Shown here in pieces: positions 1-3,381 of a stretch of DNA of 43,618 bases. A program made the translations under genes and the position numbers. Origin of the DNA: Bacteroidota bacterium (GTDB taxonomy: Bacteria > Bacteroidota > Ignavibacteria > Ignavibacteriales > Melioribacteraceae); assembly GCA_021812705.1 (NCBI GenBank), contig JAKAMT010000007.1, positions 1 to 43,618 on the forward strand. The letters are read 5' to 3'. How positions within the stretch are numbered: the first letter of the stretch is position 1; the number at the start of each line of letters is the position of its first letter. The notes beneath the pieces were generated by a model. That model saw nothing but the letters and a program-made list of their open reading frames with translations, did no database searches and was not told the origin of the DNA.

Positions 1-108
1 TTTGTGTTTCCTGTTATGCTGAGAAATGCGCTGTTCAAGATTTGAGGTACAGCCAATATAATGACGGTTTTTATCGGATTGGAGTATGTAAACAAAGTAA
101 TCCTGCAT
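1..108 (-). CDS. GIY-YIG nuclease ORF, second copy, 5' part only
   Basis: This is the start of a second copy of the ORF at 169-450. The ATG is at 108 and the 36 codons inside the window encode the same residues as the intact copy, with a single synonymous change in the third codon. It contains the GIY-YIG core (FVYIL and YIGCT) and the putative catalytic Arg27. The gene continues beyond the left edge, so its C-terminus and whether it also reads into a tRNA copy cannot be seen. The terminator hairpin at 117-138 lies immediately upstream, as in the other copy. Confidence 0.75.
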   Translation of the reverse strand, partial: MQDYFVYILQSDKNRHYIGCTSNLEQRISQHNRKHK

Positions 109-116
109 AAATAAAA

Positions 117-138
117 AACCCCAAATTTCTTTGGGGTT
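117..138 (-). terminator. Rho-independent terminator, left repeat copy
   Basis: A perfect 9-bp stem (AACCCCAAA with TTTGGGGTT) with a 4-nt loop is followed on the minus strand by a T-rich run at 109-116. It is the copy of the hairpin at 459-480 and lies downstream of the altered tRNA-Val copy and directly in front of the second GIY-YIG start codon at 108. Confidence 0.7.
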
Positions 139-148
139 ATTTAATTGT

Positions 149-215
149 GGGGGCTGAAGGATTCGAACCTACGACCCCTCCGACTTCGTCGGAGTGCTCT
201 GAACCAACTGAGCTA
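149..215 (-). pseudogene. Altered tRNA-Val copy with exchanged anticodon arm
   Basis: This copy matches tRNA-Val (490-564) from tRNA position 8 to the 3' end and lacks exactly the seven bases of the 5' acceptor strand. Its 17-nt anticodon arm is replaced by CTCCGACGAAGTCGGAG, a perfect hairpin unrelated to the original but of identical length. Read formally, the loop would present GAA, but position 33 is C rather than U and no acceptor stem can form, so it is not a working tRNA. D arm, variable region and T arm are unchanged, including a T-T mismatch in the T stem shared with the intact gene. The 5' half is also translated as the tail of the GIY-YIG ORF. Confidence 0.8.
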
Positions 216-450
216 GATATTCTTTTGCTTTTAACCAATTCTTCAAACTTTTCAAATACTTTTCTAATTTCATTGCAGAATTTTTATCCACTGTTTTGTA
301 TGAAATCAAAACAGACCATGTTTCGGTTGTACCGGTAAATCCTTTGTGTTTCCTGTTATGCTGAGAAATGCGCTGTTCAAGATTTGAGGTACAGCCAATA
401 TAATGACGGTTTTTATCGGATTGGAGTATGTAAACAAAGTAGTCCTGCAT
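169..450 (-). CDS. Small GIY-YIG nuclease-like protein with tRNA-encoded tail
   Basis: This 93-residue ORF belongs to the single-domain GIY-YIG (UvrC/homing nuclease-like) group. FVYIL is at residues 5-9, YIGCT at 17-21, the probable catalytic Arg is R27 (LEQR) and a candidate metal-binding Glu is E63. The family is about 80-100 residues long, so the domain is complete. Residues 79-93 (LAQLVQ...SEGS) are translated from the 5'-truncated tRNA-Val copy, including its hairpin, so the natural C-terminus has been replaced. The ATG follows only a few bases after a terminator stem-loop; the only purine-rich sequence upstream is the GGGG inside that stem, so translation is probably weak. Its position inside a tRNA duplication suggests a selfish element, but no target has been shown. 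The fold assignment is solid and the function is inferred. Confidence 0.85.
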   Translation of the reverse strand: MQDYFVYILQSDKNRHYIGCTSNLEQRISQHNRKHKGFTGTTETWSVLISYKTVDKNSAMKLEKYLKSLKNWLKAKEYLAQLVQSTPTKSEGS

Positions 451-458
451 AAATAAAA

Positions 459-480
459 AACCCCAAATTTCTTTGGGGTT
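459..480 (-). terminator. Rho-independent terminator after tRNA-Val
   Basis: A perfect 9-bp stem (AACCCCAAA/TTTGGGGTT, loop of four) is followed on the minus strand by a T run at 451-458. It ends tRNA-Val transcription about 10 nt after the tRNA. The T run reaches the GIY-YIG start codon at 450, so the ORF can only be transcribed by read-through or from an internal promoter that I did not find. Confidence 0.8.
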
Positions 481-489
481 ATTTAATTG

Positions 490-564
490 TGGGGGCTGAA
501 GGATTCGAACCTACGACCCTCTGCTTGTAAGGCAGATGCTCTGAACCAACTGAGCTAAGCCCCC
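490..564 (-). tRNA. tRNA-Val (anticodon UAC)
   Basis: The minus strand folds as a complete cloverleaf. Seven-base acceptor strands GGGGGCT and AGCCCCC pair, the D arm is intact, and the anticodon arm is TCTGC-CTTACAA-GGCAG with U33 and anticodon UAC. The T loop is TTCGAAT and the discriminator is A at 490. The T stem (GTAGG with CCTTC) has one T-T mismatch, which is also present in the altered copy at 149-215. CCA is not encoded. It lies about 96 bases downstream of tRNA-Gly on the same strand, with its own promoter-like sequence between them. Confidence 0.93.
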
Positions 565-605
565 GTTAAGGGTAAATCAAAAAGAACTTCAAAATTTGCG
601 CATCA

Positions 606-634
606 ATTATAGAACATTTATGCGTGAGAAACAA
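606..634 (-). promoter_or_regulatory. Sigma70-like promoter for tRNA-Val
   Basis: On the minus strand TTGTTT (634-629) and TATAAT (611-606) are separated by exactly 17 bases, about 35 bases before the tRNA-Val 5' end at 564. The match and its position make it a reasonable promoter, but it is called from sequence alone and the region is AT-rich. Confidence 0.45.
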
Positions 635-660
635 TACATAAGAAAAATATTTTATAAGAG

Positions 661-733
661 AGCGGGTGACGGGACTCGAACCCGCGACTTTCAGCTTGGG
701 AAGCTAACACTCTACCAACTGAGTTACACCCGC
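661..733 (-). tRNA. tRNA-Gly (anticodon CCC)
   Basis: The minus strand gives a full cloverleaf: acceptor GCGGGTG with CACCCGC, anticodon arm TTAGC-TTCCCAA-GCTGA with anticodon CCC, T loop TTCGAGT, and U as discriminator, as is usual for bacterial tRNA-Gly. The anticodon arm resembles that of E. coli tRNA-Gly(CCC). No CCA is encoded. A 3'-truncated copy with an altered anticodon arm lies 12 bases upstream at 746-807. Confidence 0.93.
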
Positions 734-745
734 ATATTTTTTTAA

Positions 746-807
746 GAACCCGCGACTTTCATCCCGCCCTTGGCGGGATAACACTCTACCAACTGAGTTA
801 CACCCGC
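746..807 (-). pseudogene. Altered partial tRNA-Gly copy with hairpin in anticodon arm
   Basis: The copy matches tRNA-Gly from its 5' end to the middle of the T loop, then stops, so the 3' T strand and acceptor strand are missing. The 17-nt anticodon arm is replaced by a 23-nt one containing ATCCCGCCAAGGGCGGGAT, an 8-bp perfect stem with a 3-nt loop. D arm and variable region are identical to the intact gene. The offset to the intact gene is 68 bases before and 74 after the hairpin. It cannot make a tRNA. No nuclease ORF accompanies this copy. Confidence 0.8.
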
Positions 808-869
808 ATTTTAATAAATAAATCTTCTGAGTAAAATTATATCTGCCGTTCGACTTTATCAAGAATTAT

Positions 870-1228: not shown

Positions 1229-1711
1229 ATGGATAATGGGCAAACATTTTTAGTTTTGGGTGCGATGGTTCTCCTTGCTTTTCTTATTCTCAATGTAAAC
1301 CGCACTATTCTTGGCACTACGGATAATTCTCTGCAGGCGCAAGCCATAACCTCTTCAAATAGTGCTGGGCAACAGATAATGGATTTGATTAAATCCAAAT
1401 CATTCGACGAAAGCACTGTGAACGCAGTTGTTACCGATATCAATAATTTTACTGCGCCTAATTTATTGGGCCATGAGTCAGGCGAGACTATTAATACATT
1501 CGATGATGTCGATGATTTCAATCAATACAGCTGTACGGTATCAACTCCGCGCATGGGTAATGTAGCAATCAAAGCAACAGTCGGATATGTTAATCCTGGT
1601 TCCCCTGATATATTGGTCGCCTCAAAAACCAGAATGAAAAAGATTGAGGTTAAAGCCATGGCCCGTTTCCTGCCCGACACTCTAAGAATCTATTATTATG
1701 CGAGTTATTGA
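1229..1711 (+). CDS. Pilin-like membrane-anchored protein 1
   Basis: This 160-residue protein has one N-terminal hydrophobic helix (about residues 6-24, FLVLGAMVLLAFLILNVN), then a polar, probably exported domain without cysteines. An in-frame TAG directly precedes the ATG, which fixes the start. The short N-terminus followed by a long helix resembles type IV pilin-like or PilX/PilV-like minor subunits, but the classical prepilin cleavage site (Gly-Phe with Glu at +5) is absent, so this is an analogy. It is the first of three closely spaced genes of similar architecture (10 bases to the next) that probably form one operon and act together at the cell surface. No family is recognised with confidence. 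Confidence 0.65.
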   Translation: MDNGQTFLVLGAMVLLAFLILNVNRTILGTTDNSLQAQAITSSNSAGQQIMDLIKSKSFDESTVNAVVTDINNFTAPNLLGHESGETINTFDDVDDFNQYSCTVSTPRMGNVAIKATVGYVNPGSPDILVASKTRMKKIEVKAMARFLPDTLRIYYYASY

Positions 1712-1720
1712 GTTAATTAT

Positions 1721-2248
1721 ATGGGCTCTATAAATTTAACAGGATCATTCATCATCGGCGGTATAGTATTGCTCACTCTTCTTTTTGTACAATCCAACAT
1801 AAAAGATTTTCAAAGATCACAGATAATTAATGAATTCACCGAATCAAGTATGGTCAGTATGTCGAATGTAGTTGATTATGATTTTAATAAAATAGGCTAC
1901 CGTGTTACAACTAATCCCAAAATATCTTCTATTAATGGTTCATCAATCTCTTTTTTGTCCGATCTGAATAATAATGGAACTGTTGACAGCGTGAAGTATT
2001 TTATCAGGACTCTTTCCGGCAAACAATATTTAGTTAGAAGAACATTTGAGAATTCTGCATCAGAATATCAGATGGCGATTAGCAATTTCTTAATTCAAGG
2101 GTATGATTCACTGAATAGTGCCACTTTTACTGTCGCGAATATTAAAAGCGTTGACGTGAAAATTGTAATTGATAACAACGCCTTCAGGAGTGATACTACC
2201 AGCAATTTCGGATCGTACTATCAGAGAAGATATTTTATTCATAATTAA
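1721..2248 (+). CDS. Pilin-like membrane-anchored protein 2
   Basis: This 175-residue protein has an N-terminal membrane helix at about residues 8-25 (SFIIGGIVLLTLLFVQSN), followed by a coil-forming stretch and a polar domain rich in Ser, Asn and Asp. It has the same architecture as its neighbours, starting 10 bases after the previous gene and 11 before the next. The phrase DLNNNGTVDSVKYFIR resembles a beta-hairpin seen in minor pilin-like proteins but is not diagnostic. No prepilin peptidase motif is visible. Its likely role is as a component of an envelope-anchored assembly with the two adjacent products. Confidence 0.65.
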   Translation: MGSINLTGSFIIGGIVLLTLLFVQSNIKDFQRSQIINEFTESSMVSMSNVVDYDFNKIGYRVTTNPKISSINGSSISFLSDLNNNGTVDSVKYFIRTLSGKQYLVRRTFENSASEYQMAISNFLIQGYDSLNSATFTVANIKSVDVKIVIDNNAFRSDTTSNFGSYYQRRYFIHN

Positions 2249-2259
2249 AAGTTGAATTC

Positions 2260-3381
2260 ATGGGAAGAATGCTTCTGTTTTTGGTATTGGGAGTGAGCGG
2301 TTTATTCACTCTGGCAACTCTGAATATAAATTACAGCAGTGTCCGTCTTACGAACACCTCACTTGAAAAATTTGAGAGGACTCAGGCAGCAAATTTAGCT
2401 TCAAGCGGAATTAATCTGGCAATTTCTAAATTGAATCTGGATACAACATGGGCTGGAATTAACGGGCAGCAGTTCGGACCGGGTTCTTTAACTCTCACTG
2501 TTGCGACCACAACAAGTCAGTATCCGGGCGGGCCGAACATGGGATTAACCAGTATGAGACTCATTTCAAGCACCGGCACAGTAAATAATCAGTCCGTCAC
2601 TATCAGTTCCGTTTTTCGATTAACAACTAATCCAACAGCACCTCCATTCTTGCAATACGCAATGGCGTCCGGAAATGATCTCCAGCTTCAGGGAAGCATA
2701 GATGTCCGTGATGACAATAATACTAACTGGAATGCGAATATTCATTCGAATAATAATCTTCAAACTACAGGTAACGCTTATTCAGTAAGGGGATTTGGTA
2801 CTTATTCCGATCAGCTTGAATCTTCAAAAAATAATTTTTCTCCAAATCAGAATCCGAATTCTTTGCCGGTTAATTATAAGATTCCGCCTATAACGATCCC
2901 GGTCTTCAATCCGACCGATTATCTCAGTATTGCAACAAATATTTCAAACGGTGATCTGACAGTGACCGGCCCGATGGTATTAGGGTCTAAGAGCAATCCG
3001 GTTATCTACTATGTGAACGGCAATCTAAATTTCAGAGGATCAACTACCGGTTATGGGATATTTATTGTAACCGGGAACATTAATTTTAATGGAAATGTTA
3101 CAGTTAATTCTCAGGATCCCACGGCAAGCAATATAGGATTCTATGCCGGGGGCAACATACAAGCGAGCGGGAATATAAATTTAGCGGGGCAGATGTATGC
3201 GTCGCAAAATATTCAGGCAAGCGGAAATTTTACTCTGATCGGTTCCATGACAGCGCGAAATAATATCCAGCTTTCAGGAAATCCTACGATCAGATATAGA
3301 CCGGCTAATTCATCCTTGACAAAACAATTCTGGCCTACTGCTACAAATCTGAGACCTGCTGTTATCTCCTATTATGAGTGA
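2260..3381 (+). CDS. PilX-like N-terminus with beta-helix-type repeat domain
   Basis: This 373-residue protein starts with a membrane helix at about 4-22 (MLLFLVLGVSGLFTLATLNI) and an amphipathic helix containing ANLASSGINLAISKL, as in PilX N-terminal proteins. From about residue 225 to 340 it has imperfect repeats of the type GNINFNGNVTV, GNIQASGNINLAG, QNIQASGNFTL and NNIQLSGNPTI. These would stack as a right-handed beta-helix or bactofilin-like solenoid. It closes the three-gene cassette and is the largest product, perhaps the exposed part of the assembly. No peptidase or enzyme motif is visible. The role in a secretion or pilus-like structure is inferred only from architecture. Confidence 0.65.
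   Translation: MGRMLLFLVLGVSGLFTLATLNINYSSVRLTNTSLEKFERTQAANLASSGINLAISKLNLDTTWAGINGQQFGPGSLTLTVATTTSQYPGGPNMGLTSMRLISSTGTVNNQSVTISSVFRLTTNPTAPPFLQYAMASGNDLQLQGSIDVRDDNNTNWNANIHSNNNLQTTGNAYSVRGFGTYSDQLESSKNNFSPNQNPNSLPVNYKIPPITIPVFNPTDYLSIATNISNGDLTVTGPMVLGSKSNPVIYYVNGNLNFRGSTTGYGIFIVTGNINFNGNVTVNSQDPTASNIGFYAGGNIQASGNINLAGQMYASQNIQASGNFTLIGSMTARNNIQLSGNPTIRYRPANSSLTKQFWPTATNLRPAVISYYE

Follow-up and report, generated by a model that had tools for sequence, protein, structure and literature searches.

Why should a genome keep, next to an intact tRNA gene, a partial copy of that gene in which only the anticodon arm has been exchanged for a palindrome, and why should two different tRNAs in one cluster show the same exchange? 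The question arises at one end of the 43,618-nucleotide stretch of DNA considered here (all of it together: the window), which is contig 17 in the 277-contig genome of a member of the Melioribacteraceae. On the minus strand, the cluster begins with a 62-nt partial tRNA-Gly copy (807–746), a 12-nt spacer (745–734) and an intact tRNA-Gly(CCC) gene (733–661; ARAGORN and Rfam RF00005, 69.4 bits). These are followed by an intact tRNA-Val(TAC) gene (564–490; ARAGORN and Rfam, 73.7 bits), a terminator-like hairpin (459–480), a GIY-YIG nuclease ORF of 93 aa (450–169) whose C-terminus runs into a partial tRNA-Val copy (215–147), a second occurrence of the terminator (about 117–138) and a second GIY-YIG copy (108–1), of which the contig end leaves only the N-terminal part. 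Positions 1–177 are a 99% repeat of 343–519 and the GIY-YIG unit is therefore a 342-bp tandem repeat, within which the contig begins. Beside the tRNA cluster, three successive ORFs (1229–3381; 160, 175 and 373 aa) have hydrophobic N-termini and resemble, by eye, pilin-like secretion genes.

The partial tRNA-Gly copy reported by an earlier sequence-only reading of this DNA is real. Its nucleotides 1–29 (807–779) and 41–56 (761–746) show 100% identity with the intact gene, while nucleotides 30–40 of the anticodon arm are exchanged for the 17-nt palindrome TCCCGCC-AAG-GGCGGGA (minus strand; TCCCGCC-CTT-GGCGGGA in forward orientation, 762–778). Together with the flanking A and T this forms the 8-bp stem and 3-nt loop (761–779) that the reading had described. 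The copy lacks its 3′ side beyond T-loop nucleotide C56 and, again as claimed, a check of the locus for ORFs found no nuclease ORF in or beside it. The Val copy joins nt 8–28 to nt 46–76 and has its 17-nt anticodon arm swapped for CTCCGACGAAGTCGGAG (CTCCGAC-TTC-GTCGGAG, 178–194), an exchange of exact length. Hairpin-capped break repair, by which the palindrome would be a copy of the native arm, was rejected because the palindromes have no sequence relation to the arm replaced. A role as terminators was also rejected because they have no trailing T run, unlike the separate terminators after the tRNAs.

The break points of the Gly copy (29/41/56) recur, with a different palindrome, in tandem tRNA-Gly(GCC) copies in another genome of the genus (L164), and the Val-copy architecture, with its anticodon-arm exchange, is found also in the relatives G003, G026 and G508. 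In most relatives the Gly–Val pair has no copies, whereas G002, G003, G016, G018, G024, G026 and G508 have different copies or a nuclease there; the site is thus occupied in some relatives and empty in others. A second Gly–Val locus in the same assembly (contig 212, L055) holds two tandem Gly copies whose stems are those of the window, with the loop ATA in place of AAG. This locus and window positions 1–860 are homologous Gly/Val loci with different copies, and represent either two genomic copies or two co-assembled strains.

The two copies are far from alone. In whole-genome counts based on pattern and profile searches, the palindrome TCCCGCCnnnGGCGGGA has 11 exact sites in this genome, 10 of which lie within tRNA-gene fragments (pattern search, sites read by eye; control 0). 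These derive from tRNA-Gly, Thr, Asp, Ser-UGA and Ser-GCU, and the 11th site (C132) could not be placed. Other palindromes stand in fragments of tRNA-Pro, Leu, Val (T loop) and Ser (D loop) and of the tmRNA 3′ end. On another contig of the genome (C85, L062), one hairpin-bearing tmRNA 3′ fragment is present on both sides of a GIY-YIG ORF (280–362 and 682–755), beside the real tmRNA 3′ end. The sequence-only reading had judged chance an unlikely source of the hairpins, and palindromes with stems of at least 6 bp indeed occur at only 0.08 per kb in shuffled sequence, with 0 matches for a reversed-pattern control. It had also proposed a systematic process directed at tRNAs, to be abandoned if no further cases were found; dozens of further cases exist, including some in one-contig genomes, so that this refutation fails and the proposal is strongly supported.

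The idea that anticodon arms are what is recognised proved right in its tRNA-directed part and too narrow in the rest. In Ser fragments a palindrome follows nt 21 in the D loop, in Asp one stands where the T arm would be, and 5S rRNA copies carry them too; in Val, Thr, Gly, Ser, Asn, Pro, Glu and tmRNA fragments they enter the T loop directly after C56. Each tRNA type has break points that recur in more than one genus (Pro and Val 28/46, Cys 38/57, Gly 29/41 and 56, Asp 51/60, Ser 21/22). Among 219 break points, which are not all independent, 55 fall within stems, where 106 would be expected, and 55 in the T loop, against an expectation of 24. In one genome (G018, C1:2091200–2092400; L131, 420–715), an intact 5S rRNA gene is followed by three tandem 5S rRNA 3′ fragments, each with a central palindrome TCCCGCC/CCCGCC-nnn-GGCGGG and all but the last followed by the same terminator.

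The insert after C56 is a 22-bp double hairpin, found in fragments of all eight genes named above for the T loop. Searched with its stem positions left free, the pattern was matched by 30 genomes out of 164 from the order (control 0), and its 48 distinct versions are complementary at the four free pairs in 47, 47, 46 and 44 cases. It is 99% paired, with a covariation of 0.394 against 0.079 when shuffled (0/500 shuffles). The Pro anticodon hairpin is 100% paired, with four of its seven pairs changed on both sides and none broken (covariation 0.587 versus 0.182; 0/500 shuffles). The stems differ between genomes and remain paired, which indicates that the structure is maintained and makes the earlier term 'lesion' misleading. 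Within the T-loop pair, identical stems in both hairpins are rarer than expected (3 versus 12.8) and the second hairpin tends to be an inverted form of the first (loops AAA/GAA/ATA versus TTT/TTC/TAT). A strict form of the pattern, searched in 84,980 species, gave 31 stretches, all in the FCB group: Ignavibacteria/Melioribacteraceae, Balneolaceae, Bacteroidales and other Bacteroidetes, and Chlorobiota or Calditrichaeota. Genomes with T-loop inserts have more GIY-YIG genes (8.7 versus 5.0, p=0.0025). Among viral contigs there was one pattern match and no relative of the window nuclease, leaving a viral carrier unsupported. One array (G047, C1:2802500–2804700; L223) consists of 11 tandem copies, each of about 112 bp, of a tRNA-Thr 3′ end with the T-loop double hairpin, the loops varying and the stems constant, and has no nuclease.

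Pfam PF01541 matches the window ORF at E=2.6e-14, the weakest of three ORFs that reach 1.9e-17, and a fourth at 1.1e-11. The conserved Tyr, Arg and Glu of the GIY-YIG domain are present (Y7, Y17, G19, R27 and E63 are invariant in seven proteins), and the closest solved protein is UPF0213 BH0048 (1zg2, E=0.0078). The ORFs hold little beyond this domain, and no DNA-binding part was identified in them. Of 57 genomes examined from the order, 52 contain ORFs of the window type, several of them grown into arrays of 2–5 units spaced about 310–350 bp apart; the tandem units beside tRNAs measure ~315–350 bp. Single-domain GIY-YIG ORFs often lie 0–130 bp from an intact tRNA gene and share its strand in 42/42 cases. 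Within 150 bp of such an ORF, the loci examined have 43 intact tRNAs. A partial copy accompanies 36 of these and a copy with a new palindrome at least 30, a number that is too low since palindromes located at block ends escape detection; related, non-independent cases inflate the counts, and the loci were picked by best GIY-YIG score. The intact tRNA is kept at every GIY-adjacent locus examined; the copies are truncated and often lie in tandem arrays. For Val, Pro, Cys, Asp and Asn the order is intact tRNA, ORF, 3′ part; the other polarity, with a 5′ part ahead of the ORF and the intact tRNA behind it, is mostly that of Ser and Arg. In the Ser type, the 5′ halves directly precede the nuclease start codon.

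A tree of 96 nucleases contains one large group that is nearly all non-tRNA and another that is mostly tRNA-linked; in the latter, many of whose unlabelled rows represent second copies within arrays, tRNA types cluster. The tree follows tRNA type (23 changes versus 40.2 when shuffled, 0/200), and a 100/100 clade unites the window nuclease with its counterparts at tRNA-Val in G003, G026 and G508. At diagnostic tRNA positions, those that differ between genomes, the copies match the intact tRNA of their own genome 788 times, that of the other genome 26 times and neither 32 times. Up to 100 bp from tRNA-adjacent ORFs, palindromes number 9.1 per kb; beyond 200 bp they fall to 0.06–0.4. The Gly copy, which has no nuclease ORF of its own, is still not unconnected to nucleases as a whole: the genome has 8–9 GIY-YIG ORFs and palindromes cluster round them, at tRNAs and elsewhere. 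GIY-YIG ORFs away from tRNAs have 4.55 palindromes per kb within 100 bp, of the TGTCATTCCCGCGnnnGCGGGAATCC type. These non-tRNA ORFs (including L064 on C43 of this genome, L133–L148 and L169) mostly carry TGTCATTCCCGCG...GCGGGAATCC-like palindromes on one or both sides, which we take to resemble the neisserial dRS3 repeats. The partnership of nuclease and palindrome may be general, and the palindrome link may have come first and the tRNA link second.

The hairpin-studded tRNA copies and small nuclease genes appear to make up a tRNA-targeting mobile element of a kind not yet described. They are best explained as a chromosomal family in which a single-domain GIY-YIG gene is combined with half or most of the neighbouring tRNA, an arm or loop of which is replaced or filled by one or two short palindromes. 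We assign a probability of roughly 0.55 to the reading that these are tRNA-type-specific, homing-like GIY-YIG elements, with the tRNA fragments as homology arms and the Gly copy as a nuclease-less derivative. Cleavage, homing and the role of the hairpin, which we infer, would be related as follows. The nuclease would cut at or next to its own tRNA gene and repair of the break would draw on a donor unit, with its tRNA parts as homology arms, such that the unit is inserted or amplified and one intact tRNA is retained; repeated repair would produce arrays. The palindrome would mark the copy, turning it into a non-target and a non-tRNA, or alternatively might be a structure handled by the nuclease. 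Under either role the stems should stay paired, so that the sequences do not discriminate between the two; pairing would be kept since the hairpin would matter to the element as DNA or RNA. Nuclease-less copies such as that of tRNA-Gly were probably made by nucleases acting in trans. Several observations speak against homing: the intact tRNA persists uncut beside the nuclease in each host, the ORFs offer little besides the GIY-YIG domain, palindromes also accompany GIY-YIG ORFs away from tRNAs, and the local identity of the copies could stem from recent duplication or concerted evolution.

Several known systems bear on the homing reading. Group I introns with homing nucleases occupy the tRNA anticodon loop, the same break point as here. 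Their nucleases include the GIY-YIG type (PMC3984707); unlike in tRNA-gene introns, however, the functional tRNA is here neither split nor spliced and stays intact beside the element, and the inserts are not introns because they are only 17–22 nt long. The conserved domain residues, the single target gene per lineage and the occupied and empty alleles found here are those of free-standing GIY-YIG homing endonucleases. One of these, SegB of T-even phages, cuts tRNA-containing DNA and drives tandem amplification of the tRNA and its own gene (PMC13096335), a tested phage precedent for a tRNA unit being amplified in tandem by a GIY-YIG nuclease. In both cases the nuclease gene adjoins tRNA genes. 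SegB, though, is phage-borne, amplifies an intact tRNA and is not known to involve palindromes or tRNA halves (PMC13096335), whereas the present nucleases are chromosomal, 83–93 aa long, tRNA-type-specific and accompanied by hairpin-bearing partial tRNAs. Mitochondrial double-hairpin and repetitive hairpin elements likewise consist of one or two hairpins situated in non-coding DNA and in RNA genes, and the double form, like the insert after C56, places two adjacent small hairpins in one insert (PMC2800124). They are organellar and are not known to have a partner nuclease or to duplicate tRNA halves, in contrast to the bacterial elements beside GIY-YIG genes; as the sequences are too short for homology, the likeness is one of resemblance only.

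The alternative that survives best, which we consider possible but unlikely, is that mobility belongs to the palindromes, which GIY-YIG nucleases would move in trans as RAYT does REPs and REPINs, with tRNA fragments as preferred or tolerated landing sites. Like REP/REPIN–RAYT systems (PMC2817692, PMC3116915, PMC8266576), the palindromes are short, stand singly or in inverted pairs near a presumed mobilising nuclease and have variable loops. The flanking of non-tRNA GIY-YIG ORFs, the inverse relation of hairpin 2 to hairpin 1 and the tRNA, tmRNA and 5S copies that carry palindromes without a nuclease all suit this idea. RAYT, however, is an HUH tyrosine (HUH/Y1) transposase rather than a GIY-YIG protein, and REPs lie outside genes, in many copies of one sequence common to a genome, whereas the present palindromes are intragenic in tRNA copies, with diverse stems. 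That these stems differ about as much within one genome as between genomes is unlike copies of one element, and both the fixing of insertion points to tRNA positions (after nt 21, 28/45 and C56) and the tracking of tRNA type by nuclease lineages also argue against it.

It is less probable still that the copies act as RNA, the hairpin tRNA halves being transcribed with the tRNA operon as structured leaders or tails, decoys or guides. Covarying stems, the Ser-type halves before the nuclease start codon and the placing of all parts on the tRNA strand are consistent with such a role; some arrays, however, have no nuclease, and single-strand folding of three copies was only moderately better than that of shuffled sequences (z −0.8, −2.8 and −3.2). 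Neutral debris, in which tandem duplications of tRNA ends would have acquired chance repeats or template-switch palindromes, accords with how common partial duplications of tRNA ends are, and breaks in the T and D loops could be replication pauses. It is nevertheless strongly disfavoured because the stems are conserved, and also has to face a palindrome density about 100-fold above shuffled sequence, positions fixed across genera and a native arm that is not the source of the palindromes. It is very doubtful that the hairpin-bearing tRNA half could be a guide or handle, its tRNA part directing the single-domain nuclease to the matching gene and its covarying hairpin binding the nuclease, as a minimal guided system. 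An assembly artefact, which the sequence-only reading had itself raised and which a 277-contig metagenome assembly and a contig beginning inside a repeat might suggest, is refuted because the single-contig genomes G018, G034, G045 and G047 show the same structures.

Searches of an open-access library gave no description of GIY-YIG genes with hairpin-bearing tRNA copies. If the homing reading is true, these elements would constitute a mobile system by which essential bacterial tRNA, tmRNA and 5S genes are exploited without being broken, and in which very small GIY-YIG nucleases are paired with base-paired palindromes. It would offer a candidate role for many genes annotated as small 'GIY-YIG nuclease family' proteins, link homing nucleases to REP-like palindromes and account for tRNA pseudogenes with odd hairpins in genomes of Ignavibacteria, Balneolaceae and Bacteroidales. 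How so short a GIY-YIG protein finds one tRNA gene would become testable.

Intergenic islands in G018 and G016 (L119, L120, L127) contain repeats such as GTCTTTGCGAGGAG...GACGAAGCAAACTC in which the middle is replaced by GTCCCGCCnnnGGCGGGAC; palindromes therefore also enter repeats outside RNA genes.
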